Positions 12,805 through 57,219 of a stretch of DNA of 64,000 nt are shown here, piece after piece; the first letter of the stretch is position 1, and the number at the start of each line of letters is the position of its first letter. The DNA is from an uncultured Sphingomonadales bacterium. Its GTDB lineage: Bacteria > Pseudomonadota > Alphaproteobacteria > Sphingomonadales > Rhodothalassiaceae. The stretch is taken from positions 248,001 through 312,000 of the forward strand of contig CANMND010000001.1 of the NCBI GenBank assembly GCA_947499155.1, written 5' to 3'. The notes under the pieces were generated by a model. That model searched no databases. It saw only the letters and a program-made list of their open reading frames with translations, and was not told where the DNA came from. The translations under genes and the position numbers were made by a program.

Positions 12805-14238
12805 ATGCAGTGGGATATTCGTTCTGCACGCACGGCAACAGCCGCTGTAGCGTTGCTATTGGCAGGATGCGCCAGTGGGGCCAATGAAAGCGGGATGATA
12901 TCATCTACCGCTGTCTCACCGGCCAACGCCTCCACCGCCGCCCCCTATCCTTCCACATATGTACCTGGTGACTCAGTTCCAACACTGATCCGCAATGCTG
13001 TCATTTTTGACGGTTTGGGCAACAGGATCGATAACGGTTCCATCCTGATGCGTGACGGCAAGATCGTTGCTGTCGGACAAAATGTGGCAGAGCCTGACAA
13101 CGCTGTGGTCATTGACGCCAATGGCAAATGGGTGACACCCGGAATTATCGATGTGCACAGCCATCTGGGCGTTTATTCATCACCAGGCGTTCGCGCTCAT
13201 TCTGATGGTAATGAAGCAACGGCACCGGTCACAGCTGAAGTCTGGGCAGAGCATTCCGTGTGGCCTCAGGATCCAGGATTTGTCAGGGCGCTGGCGGGTG
13301 GGATCACTGTATTGCAGCTTCTGCCTGGGTCGGCCAACCTGATTGGGGGTCGCGGCGTAACCTTGAAAAACGTTCCTTCGCGCACGGTTCAAGGCATGAA
13401 ATTCCCGGATGCACCCTATGGCCTTAAAATGGCTTGTGGTGAAAACCCCAAGCGGGTCTATGGTTCAAAGGGTCGCGCTCCATCAACACGCATGGGCAAC
13501 TTTGCTGGTTATCGCGCCAGTTGGATCAAGGCGACCGACTACAAGAATAAATGGGATGAATATGAAACCAAGATGGCGAAAGGCCAAAAGGCCGATGCCC
13601 CAAAACGTGATCTCGAGCTTGATACTCTGAAGGGGGTGCTCGATGGCGATATCATCATCCATATGCATTGCTACCGGGCCGATGAAATGGCTCAGGTGAT
13701 CGATATGTCCAAGGAATTCAACTACCATGTTGGGACGTTCCACCATGCGGTTGAAGCCTATAAAATCGGCGATCTGCTGGCGGACAATGAAACCTGCGCA
13801 GCCATGTGGGCAGACTGGTGGGGCTTTAAGATGGAAGCCTATGACGGCATCCGCGAGAATGTCCCCCTGGTTCATAATGCAGGGGCCTGTGCTATCGTCC
13901 ACTCGGATTCCGATGTCGGTATTCAGCGCCTTAACCAGGAAGCTGCCAAGGCCCTTGCGGACGCCAATAAGGCCGGTCTGGATATCCCCAAAGAAGTCGC
14001 CTGGACATGGCTAAGCCATAATCCGGCTAAATCACTGGGAATCGCTGACCAGACAGGCAGCCTTGAAGCTGGCAAGAACGCAGATGTGGTTCTATGGACT
14101 GGCGACCCGTTCTCAAGCTACAGCAAGGCAGAGAAGGTTTATATTGATGGTGCTCTTACATGGGATCTGATGGATAAGACACACCAGCCGGTCATGGACT
14201 TTGAACTGGGTCAGCCTGGTGCGGGAGATGCCAAATGA
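12805..14238 (+). CDS. Secreted amidohydrolase-family lipoprotein (metal-binding partner)
   Basis: 477 residues from the ATG at 12805, preceded by aagggaga. A lipoprotein signal ends at LLLAGC. The amidohydrolase fold is clear: the beta-strand GVVIDANGKWVTPGIIDVHSHLG-like segment carries the HxH metal motif (VHSHLG), and further candidates for metal ligands follow in HMHCYRADE, GTFHHAVEA and VHSDSDVG. The C-terminus has the usual GSLEAGKNADVVLWTGDP composite-domain motif. It is related to imidazolonepropionase-like and dipeptidase-like enzymes; the substrate is unknown. It overlaps the next gene by four bases. Confidence 0.88.
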   Translation: MQWDIRSARTATAAVALLLAGCASGANESGMISSTAVSPANASTAAPYPSTYVPGDSVPTLIRNAVIFDGLGNRIDNGSILMRDGKIVAVGQNVAEPDNAVVIDANGKWVTPGIIDVHSHLGVYSSPGVRAHSDGNEATAPVTAEVWAEHSVWPQDPGFVRALAGGITVLQLLPGSANLIGGRGVTLKNVPSRTVQGMKFPDAPYGLKMACGENPKRVYGSKGRAPSTRMGNFAGYRASWIKATDYKNKWDEYETKMAKGQKADAPKRDLELDTLKGVLDGDIIIHMHCYRADEMAQVIDMSKEFNYHVGTFHHAVEAYKIGDLLADNETCAAMWADWWGFKMEAYDGIRENVPLVHNAGACAIVHSDSDVGIQRLNQEAAKALADANKAGLDIPKEVAWTWLSHNPAKSLGIADQTGSLEAGKNADVVLWTGDPFSSYSKAEKVYIDGALTWDLMDKTHQPVMDFELGQPGAGDAK

Positions 14239-15518
14239 AAACCTTGATAAAAGCCTTCACATCAAGCCTTGCGGGTCTTGCCCTGTTTGCCGGTCCGTCC
14301 CTTGCGCAATCCATTGCCATTACTGGCGGTACCGTCCACAGCATGGGTCCGGCAGGTACCATTGAAAATGCCACAGTCCTGATTGAAAACGGTAAAATCC
14401 GGGCTGTAGGCGAAAATCTGTCCGTTCCTGCTGGCTTTCAAACCATTGACGCCACTGGCAAACAGGTAACGCCAGGTATCTTTGCAGCCTTTACGCAGAT
14501 CGGTGTCGTCGAAGTCGGCGCCGTAAGTGGCTCTCGCGACGGAGCTGTGGGTGAAAAGACGCCTTTCAATGCCGCATTTGACTTAAGCTATGCAGTGAAC
14601 CCCCTTGCCACCAACATTCCGGTCAGCCGTATTGAAGGGCTTACACGGGCTGCTGTCACTGCCACAGGCGGTGATAGCATTTTCGCAGGCCAAGGCGCTC
14701 TCATCCATCTGGGTAACGGCTTTGACCCTGTTACCAAATCCCGTGCCTTCATGACGGCCTATCTCGGCGAACAAGGAAGCCGCATGTCTGGCGGTTCCCG
14801 TGCGGGGGCCGTCGTCTGGCTGATCAATGCCCTGAAGGATGCTGAACGCTACAGAACGGAGAAGAACCCGTCAGCATGGAATGGCGTCGTCAGCGCCCTG
14901 GACGCCGAAGCTCTGGGACCTGTGATGAGGGGCGAACAAAAGCTTGTCATCCATGCATCACGGGCCAGTGATCTTCTACAGATTGTGCGCCTTAAGGAAG
15001 AAATGCCAAAACTCGACCTTGCCATCGTTGGCGCGGCTGAGGGCTGGATGGTGGCGGACAAGCTGGCGGCTGCAGGAATTCCTGTAATCGTACAGCCGTT
15101 CGACAATCTTCCCAGTAACTTCTCGGTTCTTGGTGCAACACAAGCCAATCCCGCCCGTCTGCAAAAAGCAGGTGTCGAGGTCTCAATCTCAGATACAAGC
15201 GGAGATGCACATAATGCACGGTTGATCCTGCAATATGCCGGTAACGCTGTTGCCAATGGCATGCCGTGGCAAGCAGCCCTTGAGTCTGTCACCATCAATC
15301 CTGCAAAGCTCTATGGCGTTGCTGACAGCCTTGGCTCGCTGGAACCGGGGAAAGTCGCCGATGTGGTGGTGTGGGATGGTGATCCGCTTGACGTCATGAC
15401 CAGCCCCGACAAGGTGCTGATCAATGGCGAGGACATCGATCTTGTGTCGCGACAGACGCAACTGCGTGATCGCTATATGAACCTTAAGTCCGATACACCA
15501 TTTGCCTACCGCAAATAA
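14235..15518 (+). CDS. Secreted amidohydrolase-family protein lacking the HxH motif
   Basis: 427 residues with a signal peptide (cleavage after SLAQ, about residue 25). The fold-defining ends are conserved: TIENATVLIENGKIRAVG near the N-terminus and GSLEPGKVADVVVWDGDP near the C-terminus. Where the first gene has IIDVHSHLG this one reads IFAAFTQIG, so the first metal-ligand pair is missing; a His remains in LVIHASRASD. It is probably catalytically dead or altered and works as the partner of the upstream enzyme, to which it is coupled by an ATGA overlap. Confidence 0.85.
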   Translation: MKTLIKAFTSSLAGLALFAGPSLAQSIAITGGTVHSMGPAGTIENATVLIENGKIRAVGENLSVPAGFQTIDATGKQVTPGIFAAFTQIGVVEVGAVSGSRDGAVGEKTPFNAAFDLSYAVNPLATNIPVSRIEGLTRAAVTATGGDSIFAGQGALIHLGNGFDPVTKSRAFMTAYLGEQGSRMSGGSRAGAVVWLINALKDAERYRTEKNPSAWNGVVSALDAEALGPVMRGEQKLVIHASRASDLLQIVRLKEEMPKLDLAIVGAAEGWMVADKLAAAGIPVIVQPFDNLPSNFSVLGATQANPARLQKAGVEVSISDTSGDAHNARLILQYAGNAVANGMPWQAALESVTINPAKLYGVADSLGSLEPGKVADVVVWDGDPLDVMTSPDKVLINGEDIDLVSRQTQLRDRYMNLKSDTPFAYRK

Positions 15519-50590: not shown

Positions 50591-52903
50591 ATGCGTTTCA
50601 CGCTGCTTCTGCCGTTACTGATTCTGACCACCAGTGTCTTCGCCCATCCTGTCCATCAGACCAAGTCGGGCCACCAGGACAAATTCCGCCAGATGGACGA
50701 GGTCTGGCCTACTCCTACAACATATCGCACGGGATCAGGCGCACCAGGCCATGAATATTGGCAGCAGCAGGCTGATTATAAAATCAGGGTCGCAGTTGAT
50801 GAGACGACACAGATCCTGACCGGGTCTGAGACAATTACTTATCATAACAATGCCCCCGACACCTTGAAATATCTGTGGCTGCAACTGGATCAGAATCGCT
50901 TTGCCAAGCATTCCAGTGCCTGGGCCACTCTCACACAGGCGTCCAAAGAAAGTCTGGGCATGAATGCCCTGCGTATGATGATGATCGCGGACAAGGACGA
51001 ACTGGGGCACAAAATTCTGTCGGTCAAGGGTGCAGACGGCACAGATCTTCCCTTTGTCATCAATGACACGGTCATGCGTATCGACCTGCCACAACCGCTA
51101 AGGGGCGGCACGGCCATTACATTTTCCATCGACTGGAATTATCAGATTCCTGAAGGCAAGGCCTTGAGCGCCCGTGGCGGCTGGGAATATTTTGAAGAAG
51201 ACGACAATTATCTTTTCTTTATCTCCCAATGGTTTCCTCGCATGGTCGCCTATACTGACGTCGATGGCTGGAACACCAAGGGCTTCCTGGGACGGGGAGA
51301 ATTTACACTGGAATTTGGTGACTATGACGTGGAGATCACCGTACCGGCTGACCATGTCGTTGCATCCACCGGTATTCTGCAAAATTCCGATGACGTCCTC
51401 AGCCGTACCCAGATCAATCGACTGGAAAAAGCAGCAAATGCAAAAAAGCCGGTCTTTATCGTGACTAAAGGCGAAGCCCTCAAAGCCCAGAAGAAAAAAT
51501 CAACCGATACCAAAACCTGGCATTTCACAGCAGAAAATGTCCGTGATTTCGCTTTTGCCACCAGTCGCAAATTTGTCTGGGACGCACAAGGACATAAAGA
51601 ACGTGATGGCCGCACGGTTATGGCCATGTCCTTTTACCCTGAAGAGGGCATGCCGCTTTGGGACAAATATTCCACGGAAGCCATTCTGCAAACCCTCGAT
51701 ACCTATGGGCGGATGACCGTTCCCTATCCATATCCTGTGGCAATCTCCGTCAATGGACCCATAGGCGGCGGCATGGAATATCCCATGATCACCTCCAACG
51801 GTCCACGCCCGGAAAAGGACGACACCTATTCAAGGCGCGCCAAATACGGCCTCATCGGCGTTGTGATCCATGAAATCGGCCATAACTGGTTTCCGATGAT
51901 CGTCAATTCCGACGAACGCAACTGGACCTGGATGGATGAAGGCCTGAACTCGTTCCTGCAGTTCATCGCTGAGCAGGAATGGGAAGAAGACTACCCGTCA
52001 CGACGGGGCCATGCAGTTGATATCATCGACTATATGATCTCACCCAATCAGGTGCCGATCATGACCCAGTCGGAATCGATCCTGCAATTTGGCAATAATG
52101 CCTATGGGAAGCCCGCCATCGCGCTCAATATCCTGCGTGAAACGGTCATGGGACGCGAAAATTTCGATTTCGCCTTCCGTGAATATGCCGAGCGCTGGTG
52201 GTACAAGCGCCCGCAACCGGCGGATTTCTTCCGCACCATGGAAGACGCCAGCGGCATTGATCTGGACTGGTTCTGGCGCGGCTGGTTTTACACAACTGAT
52301 CATGTGGATATTTCCATCGACAAGGTAACGCTCGCCACCATCAACACCAAAGACCCTGATGTCGAAGCCAAATGGAAGCGCGACCAGAAAGCGGCAGAAC
52401 CCCGTTCCATCACCGCCCAGCGCAATGACGGCATGACAAGGCGTACGGACAAGGACCCGTCCCTGCTTGATTTTTATAACGAGAATGACGAATTCACTGT
52501 CTCCCCCAAGGACCGCGAGGCCCATGACAAGCTGATGAAGGACATGGAGCCATGGGAGAAAGAGCTTCTGGCTTTGGGCACTAACCTCTATTTCGTCGAT
52601 TTCAGCAATCATGGCGGGCTTGTGATGCCCTTGCTTTTGCAGATCACCTATGGCGACGGGACAGTGGAAAATCAGAAAATCCCGGCTGAAATCTGGCGAA
52701 CCAACCAGAAAAACGTCACGAAACTGATTGTTACTGACAAGACAATTTCGGCCATAGCCCTCGACCCCAACCGGGAAACCGCCGACGCGGACGAGCATAA
52801 TAATTACTGGCCAAGGAAACCTGTCGAAACGCGGCTGGAGCTGTTCAAGCGTAAAATCGAACCCAATCTGATGCAGAAAATGAAGGGTGGTAGTAAAGAA
52901 TGA
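50591..52903 (+). CDS. Secreted M1-family metallopeptidase, first copy
   Basis: 770 residues with a signal peptide (cleavage after VFA, about residue 18). The gluzincin motif HEIGH (His427, Glu428, His431) with Glu450 eighteen residues later (WTWMDEG) identifies an M1 zinc aminopeptidase. The exopeptidase motif GGMEYPMI is present before it. It should trim oligopeptides outside the inner membrane. Its last 254 codons are nearly identical in DNA to the next gene. Stop and next start overlap (ATGA). Confidence 0.93.
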   Translation: MRFTLLLPLLILTTSVFAHPVHQTKSGHQDKFRQMDEVWPTPTTYRTGSGAPGHEYWQQQADYKIRVAVDETTQILTGSETITYHNNAPDTLKYLWLQLDQNRFAKHSSAWATLTQASKESLGMNALRMMMIADKDELGHKILSVKGADGTDLPFVINDTVMRIDLPQPLRGGTAITFSIDWNYQIPEGKALSARGGWEYFEEDDNYLFFISQWFPRMVAYTDVDGWNTKGFLGRGEFTLEFGDYDVEITVPADHVVASTGILQNSDDVLSRTQINRLEKAANAKKPVFIVTKGEALKAQKKKSTDTKTWHFTAENVRDFAFATSRKFVWDAQGHKERDGRTVMAMSFYPEEGMPLWDKYSTEAILQTLDTYGRMTVPYPYPVAISVNGPIGGGMEYPMITSNGPRPEKDDTYSRRAKYGLIGVVIHEIGHNWFPMIVNSDERNWTWMDEGLNSFLQFIAEQEWEEDYPSRRGHAVDIIDYMISPNQVPIMTQSESILQFGNNAYGKPAIALNILRETVMGRENFDFAFREYAERWWYKRPQPADFFRTMEDASGIDLDWFWRGWFYTTDHVDISIDKVTLATINTKDPDVEAKWKRDQKAAEPRSITAQRNDGMTRRTDKDPSLLDFYNENDEFTVSPKDREAHDKLMKDMEPWEKELLALGTNLYFVDFSNHGGLVMPLLLQITYGDGTVENQKIPAEIWRTNQKNVTKLIVTDKTISAIALDPNRETADADEHNNYWPRKPVETRLELFKRKIEPNLMQKMKGGSKE
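52129..52890 (+). repeat. Near-identical tract in M1 peptidase copy 1
   Basis: This 762-bp tract matches 54438-55199 with eight mismatches that I could count by eye, six of them silent. Upstream of 52129 the two genes differ strongly. The sharp edge is typical of gene conversion. Confidence 0.9.
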
Positions 52904-55206
52904 TGGGACGTGGATTTCTCGCCCTCTTTGCCATAGGTATCGCATCTGTGGCATTCGCCCACCCGGTGCTTCAGACCAAATCCGGCCATCAGGACAAGTT
53001 CCGCCAGATGGATGAAGTCTGGCCCACACCGACAAAAACCCGTGCAGCGTCTGGCGCACCAGGCCATGAATACTGGCAGCAGCATGTGCGCTATGACATT
53101 GATGTTACCCTTGATGACAAAGGCCACCGCATAGATGGGCGCGTCAATATCGCGTATGAGAACCACTCACCGGACACCCTGACTTATCTGTGGCTGCAAT
53201 TGGATCAAAACCGTTTCAAGCAGCATTCCTTCTCTCAGACAACCCATAGCGAGCCATTTGACAGCGGCCTCTCCATGGCCCGTCTGCGTGAGATCACCAC
53301 GGTTAATAACAGCCGTTTTGGTTATGATATCAAATCGGTTACCGATACCGCAGGTTCGGCTATGTCGCACCAAATCGTTGATACCATGATGCGGGTGGAT
53401 CTGCCCCACCCCCTTAAGCCGGGGGAAGTGGCGGAACTTGTGGTCACCTATGGCTTTGATGTGGTCTCTGCCAGTGAGGTCTCCAATCGGTCAGCTTATG
53501 AAATCCTTGATGATGGCAGTCCCAACTATTTCATCGCCATGTGGTATCCACGCATGGCGGCCTATACGGACTATGGCGGGTGGATCACCAAAAACTTTCT
53601 CTATGCCGAGCCTGCCCTTGAATTTGCAGACTTTTCTGTCGCCATCACAGTGCCGGACAGTTACATCATCTCCGCCACCGGCACATTAAAGAACCCTGAT
53701 GACGTCCTGACAAACACCCAAAAACAGCGACTGGAACAGGCAAAAGAGGCTAACAAGCCCATTTTCATCATCACACCGGATGAGGCTGCGGCCAATACTA
53801 CAAAAAAAGCAACTGGAACCAGAACCTGGCAATTCGGGGCGGAAATGGTGCGTGATTTTGCCTTTGCCGCCAGCCCTGCGTTCATCTGGGATGCGAAAGG
53901 CTACCAGTCTGATGATGGCCGCACCATAATGGCGCACTCTCTTTATCCTAAAGAAGGCATGCCGCTCTGGGACAAATATTCGACCGAGGCGATCATACAG
54001 ACTCTTGAGACCTATGGGCGCATGGCTGGCGAATACCCTTACCCCCACGCCACATCCATCAATGCCCCAATCCGGTCCGGGATGGAATATCCCATGCTGG
54101 CCGCCAACGCGCCGCGCCCTGAAAAAGACGGTACCTATTCACGGCGCACCAAATATGGGCTGATTGGCGTTGTGATCCATGAAGTCGGTCACAACTGGTT
54201 CCCAATGATCATAAATTCCGACGAACGCCACTGGCTGTGGATGGACGAAGGACTGAACTCATTCCTTGATGAACTGGCAATTCGGGAATGGGAGCCAAAC
54301 GTTCCAGCCGTTAACAGCGAGCCGCATGATCTTGCCCAACGCATGACGCGGGCGCATCAGCAACCAATCATGACCCAGGCGGATGCTTATATAAATCGTG
54401 GCACCACGGGTTATGCCAAGGTGACTGCGGCACTGACTATCCTGCGTGAAACGGTCATGGGACGCGAAAATTTCGATTTCGCCTTCCGCGAATATGCCGA
54501 ACGCTGGTGGTACAAGCGCCCGCAACCGGCGGATTTCTTCCGCACCATGGAAGATGCAAGCGGCATTGATCTGGACTGGTTCTGGCGCGGCTGGTTTTAC
54601 ACAACTGATCATGTGGATATTTCCATCGACAAGGTAACGCTCGCCACCATCAACACCAAAGACCCTGATGTCGAAGCCAAATGGAAGCGCGACCAGAAAG
54701 CGGCAGAACCCCGTTCCATCACCGCCCAGCGCAATGACGGCATGACAAGGCGTACGGACAAGGACCCGTCCCTGCTTGATTTTTATAACGAGAATGACGA
54801 ATTCACTGTCTCCCCCAAGGACCGCGAGGCCCATGACAAGCTGACGAAGGACATGGAGCCATGGGAGAAAGAGCTGCTGGCTTTGGGCTCTAACCTCTAT
54901 TTCGTCGATTTCAGCAATCATGGCGGGCTTGTGATGCCCTTGCTTTTGCAGATCACCTATGGCGACGGGACAGTGGAGAATCAGAAAATCCCGGCTGAAA
55001 TCTGGCGAACCAACCAGAAAAACGTCACGAAACTGATTGTTACTGACAAGACAATTTCGGCCATAGCCCTCGACCCCAACCGGGAAACCGCCGACGCGGA
55101 CGAGCATAATAATTACTGGCCAAGGAAACCTGTCGAAACGCGGCTGGAGCTGTTCAAGCGTAAAATCGAACCCAATCTGATGCAGAAAATGAAGGGTGGG
55201 GAATAA
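52900..55206 (+). CDS. Secreted M1-family metallopeptidase, second copy
   Basis: 768 residues, same layout as the first copy: signal peptide (cleavage after AFA), HEVGH (His427, Glu428, His431) and Glu450 (WLWMDEG), with RSGMEYPML before it. N-terminal 512 residues are diverged paralogue sequence; from ILRETVMG onwards only two substitutions (Met to Thr, Thr to Ser) separate the two proteins before the last few residues. Divergence near the catalytic cleft and between residues 475 and 512 suggests a different peptide preference. Confidence 0.93.
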   Translation: MMGRGFLALFAIGIASVAFAHPVLQTKSGHQDKFRQMDEVWPTPTKTRAASGAPGHEYWQQHVRYDIDVTLDDKGHRIDGRVNIAYENHSPDTLTYLWLQLDQNRFKQHSFSQTTHSEPFDSGLSMARLREITTVNNSRFGYDIKSVTDTAGSAMSHQIVDTMMRVDLPHPLKPGEVAELVVTYGFDVVSASEVSNRSAYEILDDGSPNYFIAMWYPRMAAYTDYGGWITKNFLYAEPALEFADFSVAITVPDSYIISATGTLKNPDDVLTNTQKQRLEQAKEANKPIFIITPDEAAANTTKKATGTRTWQFGAEMVRDFAFAASPAFIWDAKGYQSDDGRTIMAHSLYPKEGMPLWDKYSTEAIIQTLETYGRMAGEYPYPHATSINAPIRSGMEYPMLAANAPRPEKDGTYSRRTKYGLIGVVIHEVGHNWFPMIINSDERHWLWMDEGLNSFLDELAIREWEPNVPAVNSEPHDLAQRMTRAHQQPIMTQADAYINRGTTGYAKVTAALTILRETVMGRENFDFAFREYAERWWYKRPQPADFFRTMEDASGIDLDWFWRGWFYTTDHVDISIDKVTLATINTKDPDVEAKWKRDQKAAEPRSITAQRNDGMTRRTDKDPSLLDFYNENDEFTVSPKDREAHDKLTKDMEPWEKELLALGSNLYFVDFSNHGGLVMPLLLQITYGDGTVENQKIPAEIWRTNQKNVTKLIVTDKTISAIALDPNRETADADEHNNYWPRKPVETRLELFKRKIEPNLMQKMKGGE
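54438..55199 (+). repeat. Near-identical tract in M1 peptidase copy 2
   Basis: Partner of 52129-52890, offset exactly 2309 bp with no gaps. Ends nine bases after the shared AAAATGAAGGGTGG, just before the two stops. Confidence 0.9.
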
Positions 55207-55305: not shown

Positions 55306-57219
55306 ATGAAGTCCCATATTTTTTCTCTGATATGCGCCAGTGCCCTGGCGCTTACAGCCTGCGAACCCGCACCATCAGATCAGCAGGTTCCGGCTGAAAC
55401 CGGACAGTCCCCGTCTGATATCTCGGACAAGTCCCAAACACAGGCCGTATCTGACGCGGTTGACCAGCTGATTGCCACACAAACGGCGCGGTTTATGAAT
55501 ACCCAGCCGCTGTTGTCCAGCTTTAATGATATTCCTGAAAGCCAGGTGGGCGGCCCTTATGCCCGGCGGATTACGGATTATTCTCCTATAGGCTTTCAGA
55601 ATGTCCGCAAGGTAGCACGATCAGCCCATGACGCGCTTGCCGATATGGATCGCGAAGGGCTGAGCGACAAGGACCGGCTCAACCTGGCGGTTGTGGAAGA
55701 CATTCTCAACTATTACACAGGCGCTGAGGGTATCGAATATGGGCTGATCGATTCTTATTTCGGACATGTCCCTTACGTAGTGAGCCCGATTTCAGGTCCG
55801 CATCTGGACATACCGAAACTGATGCAGACCCAACAGCGGCTCAAATCCCTGACCGATGCCCAGGACTATATCGCCCGCCTTGAAGCTTTTATTGACGCCT
55901 TTGACGCTATTCACAAAAAGATAAAGGCCGATGCGGAATTGGGGACCATACCTCCTCGCATTCTCATTGAAAAAACCATTGCCCCAATTAAGGCCTTTAT
56001 AGAGGGCACCGCGGCTGACAATATTCTGGTGACAAGCTTTAAGGAGCGGATCTCCGAAATCGACGAGATAGATGCCGAAACGCAAGAGCAACTGGTCAAT
56101 CGCGCCAAAGGGGCTGTCGTAACGTCCGTTTTCCCCGCCTATGCAAGGCTTGCGGAAACGCTTGAAGACCTTTTGGATAGGGCTGGCACTGACTCAGGGG
56201 TGTGGGCGCAGCCAGATGGTGAGGCATTTTACAGATCAGCCGTAAAGGCTCTGGGCGACACGGATTTAAGCCCGGAAGAGATACATGCCATTGGTCTAAG
56301 GGAAGTTGACCGCATCACCGCTGAAATGGACGCCATCCTCAAGGACCGGGGGCTAAATGATGGCACAGTGGGCGAGCGGATGGTTCGCCTGAGCGAAGAT
56401 CCACACTATCTGTTTGCCGACAGTGACGAAGGACGGGCCGAACTTCTTTCGTTCCTTCGCGATCAAGTGGATGAAATCAATCAGATCATCCCTGACTATT
56501 TTGCCACCATCCCGTCACAAAAACTGGAAATCCGCCGCATTCCGGTATTCAGCCAGGATGGCGAAGCAGGTGGATTTTACACCAACCCTTCGCTGGATGG
56601 TACCCGGCCCGGGATTTACTGGATCAATCTGCGTGACATGAAGGCATGGCCAAGCTGGAGCCTCAATACCCTCACCTATCATGAGGCAATCCCCGGACAT
56701 CATTTCCAGGTCGCCATCAACATGAGTGAGAGCAACCTGCCTCTGATGCGCCGCATTGCGCCATTCAATGCGTTTGTGGAAGGGTGGGCGCTTTATTCTG
56801 AACAACTTGCCTATGAAATGGGACTTTATGACGATGATCCCCTTGGCAATCTGGGGCGCCTTCAGGATGAGCTGTTCCGCGCTGTGCGGCTGGTGGTGGA
56901 TACCGGCCTTCACGCCAAGCGCTGGAGCCGCGAAGAAGCCATCGACTATATGTACAAAACCACCGGCGCTGACAAATCTGAAGTGGTGCCGGAAATCGAG
57001 CGCTATATGGCATGGCCCGGTCAGGCGCTTGGGTACAAGCTTGGCATGCTGAAAATTCTGGAATTGCGCGGCAAGTCCCAAACAGCGCTTGGGGATGCCT
57101 TCGATATCAAGGAGTTTCACGATGTAGTCTTGCGCGACGGGGCCATTCCAATGTCTGTTCTCACTCAGAAAGTGCAGGACTGGGTGACATCAAAGCAGGC
57201 ATCGCCAGACGGCGCCTAA
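55306..57219 (+). CDS. DUF885 lipoprotein, probable metallopeptidase
   Basis: 637 residues. Lipobox LTAC (Cys19). DUF885 family with the conserved zinc-site motif HEAIPGHH (459-466) and FVEGWALYSEQLAYEMG. Members are secreted peptidases or related hydrolases. It lies 99 bp after the M1 pair and is probably part of the same peptide-degrading cluster. Its stop overlaps the recO stop on the other strand (57216-57219). Confidence 0.88.
   Translation: MKSHIFSLICASALALTACEPAPSDQQVPAETGQSPSDISDKSQTQAVSDAVDQLIATQTARFMNTQPLLSSFNDIPESQVGGPYARRITDYSPIGFQNVRKVARSAHDALADMDREGLSDKDRLNLAVVEDILNYYTGAEGIEYGLIDSYFGHVPYVVSPISGPHLDIPKLMQTQQRLKSLTDAQDYIARLEAFIDAFDAIHKKIKADAELGTIPPRILIEKTIAPIKAFIEGTAADNILVTSFKERISEIDEIDAETQEQLVNRAKGAVVTSVFPAYARLAETLEDLLDRAGTDSGVWAQPDGEAFYRSAVKALGDTDLSPEEIHAIGLREVDRITAEMDAILKDRGLNDGTVGERMVRLSEDPHYLFADSDEGRAELLSFLRDQVDEINQIIPDYFATIPSQKLEIRRIPVFSQDGEAGGFYTNPSLDGTRPGIYWINLRDMKAWPSWSLNTLTYHEAIPGHHFQVAINMSESNLPLMRRIAPFNAFVEGWALYSEQLAYEMGLYDDDPLGNLGRLQDELFRAVRLVVDTGLHAKRWSREEAIDYMYKTTGADKSEVVPEIERYMAWPGQALGYKLGMLKILELRGKSQTALGDAFDIKEFHDVVLRDGAIPMSVLTQKVQDWVTSKQASPDGA

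Follow-up and report, generated by a model that had tools for sequence, protein, structure and literature searches.

Tandem M1 metallopeptidase genes share a C-terminal domain very probably homogenized by recurrent gene conversion

Introduction

Part-of-gene concerted evolution has been described for a few bacterial paralogues, and the large prokaryote survey of the subject (26 genes including tuf, amo and hao, with no M1 peptidase among them) deals with genes homogenized over nearly their full length; its authors name part-of-gene cases as future work (PMC6053082). In Helicobacter pylori, conversion of one end is described for babA/babB and homA/homB segment 3 (PMC2795765, with Pride and Blaser 2002 as its source on babA/babB). 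Conversion of domain 3 has been reported in two cases between the release factor genes RF1 and RF2 (PMC4530459), and the type VII secretion system (T7SS) immunity genes esaG and tipC recombine between tandem paralogues through conserved blocks (PMC9484751). Here we analyze two adjacent genes for M1 metallopeptidases in a 64-kb window, that is, the whole stretch of 64,000 nucleotides studied, from contig CANMND010000001.1 of an uncultured Sphingomonadales bacterium (genome G000). Coordinates below are positions in this window.

Like the bab and hom genes, the M1 genes are same-genome paralogues with one end homogenized by conversion, segment 1 being the part that diverges in bab and hom. However, bab and hom encode outer-membrane proteins of one species, whereas the M1 pairs are tandem enzymes, occur across genera and derive from at least three separate duplications. 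The release factors are similar in that conversion is limited to a domain of shared function while the specificity domains stay distinct, but M1 conversion recurs in many genomes and takes place between adjacent genes. With tuf, amo and hao the M1 pairs share recurrent conversion of paralogues over many species, although not the nearly full-length homogenization of the surveyed genes. Compared with esaG and tipC, the M1 genes mostly keep a constant number, and the copies stay similar in one domain. Literature searches on tandem M1 genes under conversion returned nothing relevant. Part-of-gene conversion is already known, and the M1 pairs add an unusually recurrent case, in separate duplications of an enzyme gene. 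They provide dozens of naturally occurring replicates in which one domain is homogenized and the catalytic part is not. Many of these are in bacteria that can be cultured, and they allow a direct test of what limits conversion, homology or function. They are also a natural example of one protein part kept alike while the remainder specializes, and a caution that a tree built from such genes blends two histories and that assemblies made from short reads may be interrupted there.

Two overlapping M1 peptidase genes share a nearly identical last third

The features of the pair are as follows.

50591..52903, + strand: M1 metallopeptidase copy 1, open reading frame (ORF) of 770 amino acids with a signal-like N-terminal segment; PF01433, E 4.7e-15
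52900..55206, + strand: M1 metallopeptidase copy 2, ORF of 768 amino acids; PF01433, E 1.4e-13
52900..52903, + strand: ATGA overlap of the copy 1 stop and the copy 2 start, read from the sequence
51869..51883, + strand: HExxH zinc motif of copy 1 (H427-H431), upstream of the tract; invariant in 112/112 aligned copies
54178..54192, + strand: HExxH zinc motif of copy 2, from the sequence and the 112-copy alignment
52103..52105, + strand: Tyr505 of copy 1, presumed catalytic, 8 codons before the tract edge; invariant in 112/112 copies
54412..54414, + strand: the corresponding Tyr of copy 2, from the sequence and the 112-copy alignment
52129..52890, + strand: homogenized tract in copy 1 (codons 514-767), 8 mismatches in 762; hidden Markov model (HMM) segment 513.7-767.3
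54438..55199, + strand: homogenized tract in copy 2, from base comparison with copy 1 and HMM segmentation

Within the tract, 754 of 762 positions match at a constant offset of 2309, the mismatches falling only at 52180, 52192, 52246, 52249, 52536, 52567, 52580 and 52669. Six of these differences are silent and two are replacements (Met/Thr in the codon at 52535 and Thr/Ser in the codon at 52580). Both edges are sharp, with the nearest flanking mismatches at 52128 and 52891, and in both genes the tract runs into the final codons but ends before the stop codon. Upstream, over codons 1-513, nucleotide identity between the copies is 59.9% and amino-acid identity 53.2%. A match this close over 762 bp, beside about 60% over 1.5 kb, is far beyond chance. 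Synonymous divergence (dS) between the copies is 0.04 in the C-terminal part (C part) versus 2.5 in the N-terminal part (N part), and the C part that differs by 0.04 within the genome differs by about 2 from its orthologue. A first-pass annotation made from the letters alone had described the eight mismatches, six of them silent, the offset and a clearly diverged first ~1,540 bp, and base comparison reproduced each of these. Concerted evolution of the full-length, tuf type does not describe the pair, whose N-terminal two thirds are only 53% identical in amino acids. A search of the window genome for a third full copy that might have served as donor found none. Antisense ORFs (52040-53059 and 54259-55107, both on the − strand; 339 and 282 amino acids) overlie the tract in both copies, as ORF predictions only.

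Both proteins are M1 metallopeptidases (MEROPS M1, gluzincin) by domain, motifs and predicted fold, with putative aminopeptidase activity. Their Peptidase_M1 (PF01433) scores of 56.2 and 51.4 bits exceed the curated cut-off of 27.7. Residues H427, E428, H431, E450, G394-M395-E396 and Y505 are invariant in 112 of 112 aligned copies, the GxMEN-like motif being present in a GMEY form; we take Y505 to be the catalytic tyrosine from the Y-x-K motif of the family. The HExxH...E site (427-450) and all catalytic residues lie upstream of the tract, whose edge at residues 513/514 falls 8 residues past Y505, between the helix that bears this tyrosine (500-519) and the following helix (522-535). The early description of the edge as sharp holds, but its placement after the catalytic zinc domain does not: the Pfam M1 domain continues to residue 565. 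The tract instead takes in the final helices of the thermolysin-like domain, at the end of domain II, together with the C-terminal domain. Judged from the ATGA overlap, the two genes probably form an operon with translational coupling.

N-terminal parts group by copy and C-terminal parts by genome

Relatives of the window genome carry the same arrangement. In G001, of the same genus, the tandem pair adjoins the same CN_hydrolase-GNAT gene, and pairs are also present in G004 and G006, from other genera of the family. In the tree of N parts, copy 1 of the window genome joined copy 1 of G001 (support 100/99) and copy 2 joined copy 2 of G001 and the single gene of G002 (98/95.7), and a clade of both window copies was rejected (approximately unbiased (AU) test, p 1.4e-67). 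By contrast, the tree of C parts united the two window copies (100/99.5) and the two G004 copies (100/100), and copy clades were rejected (p 5e-7, 4e-6 and 2e-7). This is the orthologue comparison that the first-pass annotation had proposed as a check, and trees, tract edges and silent sites agree with its reading of a recent C-terminal homogenization by conversion. The process is recurrent, however, rather than a single event in the window genome. C-termini are alike between copies in other genera as well, which the annotation had named as a refuting observation, but the C-domains there group by genome, as repeated conversion predicts.

The tracts also differ in position between genomes. In G004 the tract spans 755 bp (codons 512-764 by HMM segmentation), and in G001 it is internal (codons 543-692), with diverged sequence on either side. 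Over codons 693-766, both window copies agree with copy 1 of G001 at 78% and with its copy 2 at 62%. The C ends of the window pair are thus nearer to copy 1, making copy 1 the probable donor, and the latest event in the window probably copied copy 1 into copy 2, as judged from this sequence comparison. The single gene of G002 (L101, contig G002:C105, 6876-9209, − strand), beside the conserved CN_hydrolase-GNAT gene, has an N part of copy-2 type, whereas its C end is nearer to G001 copy 1 (76%) than to G001 copy 2 (57%); this chimera-like gene looks as if copy 1 had been lost after a conversion.

These positions bear on unequal crossing over, offered earlier as the alternative, in which a three-gene array (A, a B_N-A_C hybrid and B) would form and the third gene would later be lost. 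Array expansion does happen: loci L033 and L184 hold triplet arrays of the M1 peptidase, in which the C parts are alike too, and the window tract extends to the final codons of both genes. However, crossing over fits poorly with the two internal edges in G001, with tracts that stop short of the stop codon and with the recently converted pair L153, in which the sequence following copy 2 is still the orthologue of the corresponding L024 flank (93%) and does not resemble the downstream flank of copy 1. The stretches downstream of copy 1 and copy 2 in the window align no better than chance, inspection of the 99 bases that separate copy 2 from the gene after it revealed no evident third-gene remnant, and a precise gene loss would be required every time. 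Because of the internal edges, the unchanged copy-2 flanks and the mostly stable gene number, we favor gene conversion and regard crossing over as improbable.

An assembly artefact, in which short reads from the two near-identical 3' ends were merged or sequence of one copy was used to fill in the other, appears more improbable still. The window genome is a 25-contig draft, and contigs of the relatives G187, G190 and G204 break or truncate at this region: in G187:C10/C19, G190:C24 and G204:C13 the matches end within residues 590-700 in one copy or in both, which is what breakage or collapse of near-identical C-domains during draft assembly would produce. By contrast, eight scattered differences distinguish the window copies, contig C1 (661 kb) continues for hundreds of kilobases on either side, and separately assembled genomes have the same pattern with other tract positions.

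The same pattern recurs in separate duplications

A wider survey gathered 57 adjacent tandem pairs, mostly from Massilia-type genomes (betaproteobacteria, far from the order of the window genome). Nonsynonymous divergence (dN) was lower in the C part than in the N part in 57 of 57 pairs (medians 0.048 versus 0.174), and the proportion of synonymous differences (pS) was lower in 53 of 57. Copies from one genome were sisters in 1 of 48 Massilia-type genomes for the N part and in 21 of 48 for the C part. At variable columns, within-genome agreement was 76-80% (42-44% expected) over codons 581-755 and 31% (26% expected) over codons 25-260. Near-identical tracts in these pairs were frequent in codons 521-760 and almost absent from 61-200; a second peak, at codons 421-455, coincides with the zinc site and probably reflects constraint. 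A separate duplication in G083 had the same pattern (N part 79%, C part 98% in amino acids), and the three duplications of family f1, G083 and the Massilia-type genomes are separate in the N tree and all show C homogenization.

Stronger purifying selection on the C part alone, with no exchange, might also keep C parts alike, and codons 521-580 are conserved across all relatives. However, orthologous copies diverge equally in the two parts (dN 0.127 in the C part and 0.126 in the N part), which favors conversion over slow evolution of the C part; the window pair is depleted of silent differences too, C parts group by genome in trees, and in dispersed paralogues the C part is usually less conserved than the N part. 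We rejected higher intrinsic constraint on the C part on the basis of the equal orthologue rates, the silent sites and the trees, and give this explanation next to no chance. The dispersed paralogues also lacked a C excess in 5 of 6 genomes and had a mild one in G024, but as their copies are old and divergent this control does not prove adjacency to be the cause. For Salmonella, no correlation between recombination rate and distance was seen (PMC8262849).

Recurrent, domain-limited gene conversion between adjacent copies therefore very probably explains the nearly identical tails. The marks of concerted evolution are all present, namely within-genome closeness that includes silent sites, internal edges with unchanged flanks, and recurrence in several lineages (G000, G001, G004, G083 and the Massilia-type pairs). 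Several observations weigh against this reading. In G006, of the same family, the C excess is weak (65% versus 55% in amino acids), implying that the conversion process is not constant. Monophyly of the G001 pair across the whole C part is supported at only 67/61, a low value because its tract is partial. The Massilia-type genomes are kin, so that the 57 pairs count for fewer than 57 independent events, and most tandem pairs are mosaics in which single events cannot be dated. Finally, the window-genome tract is known from the assembly of one draft genome of 25 contigs.

A functional reason for C-limited conversion is much less certain

The pair very probably goes back to an ancient tandem duplication of a gene for a secreted-type M1 metallopeptidase, and domain I and the catalytic site have diverged and remain distinct. 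The last third, comprising the end of domain II and domain III, has very probably been overwritten repeatedly by non-reciprocal homologous recombination between the neighbors, the latest window event being about 762 bp long and, with a C-part dS of about 0.04, recent. Conversions reaching the N-terminal two thirds may be removed since the copies would have different substrate roles. A shared C-domain, in turn, may be tolerated or favored if its task is identical in the two co-expressed proteins, the candidates being stabilization of the fold, binding of a common partner or contact between the two proteins. The functional reason for this restriction is much less certain than conversion itself.

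A variant of the conversion model is neutral: the N part would be too diverged to recombine, and the restriction would have no functional reason. The N parts of the window pair are only 60% identical, a level too low for efficient recombination, and the orthologue comparison with a time proxy is compatible with neutral conversion. However, in Massilia-type pairs the N part is about 80% identical and evolves at the same rate as the C part, yet tracts are nearly absent from codons 61-200, and the 112-copy alignment contains ten near-fixed copy-specific residues in the N part and none in the C part. We consider the neutral variant possible but not the likelier account. Conversion in the tuf genes of Salmonella starts, in effect, uniformly along their length (PMC5485169). 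From this uniform initiation, and from C-only conversion at about 80% N identity, we infer selection against conversion of the N part.

The first-pass annotation had also raised the idea that selection keeps one C-domain for both enzymes, and on this point the matched-pS and time-proxy tests are only suggestive. In the first version of the matched-pS test, all 28 pairs whose pS exceeded 0.28 lay below the matched-orthologue median, a result biased by saturation and by selecting on noisy pS. When time was estimated by an independent proxy, the replacement deficit appeared only at high pS, and low-pS pairs lay above the curve. Positive selection for identical C-domains is suggested by these data, and only suggested because the deficit is confined to high synonymous divergence. 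That selection actively keeps one C-domain for both co-translated peptidases as a shared interface, in parallel in at least three duplications, is accordingly a tentative proposal, less probable than not.

The predicted C-terminal domain resembles domain III of M1 peptidases

The AlphaFold2 (AF2) model of an M1 copy has a mean predicted local distance difference test (pLDDT) score of 89. Its fold matches tricorn F3 and ERAP1 (Z about 30, root-mean-square deviation about 3, 456-488 residues aligned) and E. coli PepN (Z about 29), and the large domain IV is absent from the predicted structure. For the C-domain, with no Pfam match above cut-off and no solved relative found by sequence search, the model (mean pLDDT 87) aligns to M1 domain III over some 80 residues (Z 7 to 8), a match no closer than those to CARDB and FN3-like sandwiches. 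As modeled, it is likely a domain III of beta-sandwich type that carries a helical insertion, and uninformative on partners.

Neighboring genes and minor observations

Directly downstream of the pair lies a DUF885 gene (55306-57219, + strand), with no relative beside the pair in the searched stretches of G001, G002, G004 and G006. The window contains a second overlapping tandem pair, encoding amidohydrolases (12805-14235 and 14235-15515, + strand) that are 27% identical; comparison of these copies gave no sign of homogenization. In the M1 genes, the mature N-termini (HPVxQTKSGHQDKFRQMDEVW; 50645-50704 and 52960-53019) are alike in both copies (50 of 60 bases), a likeness that looks like ordinary conservation.
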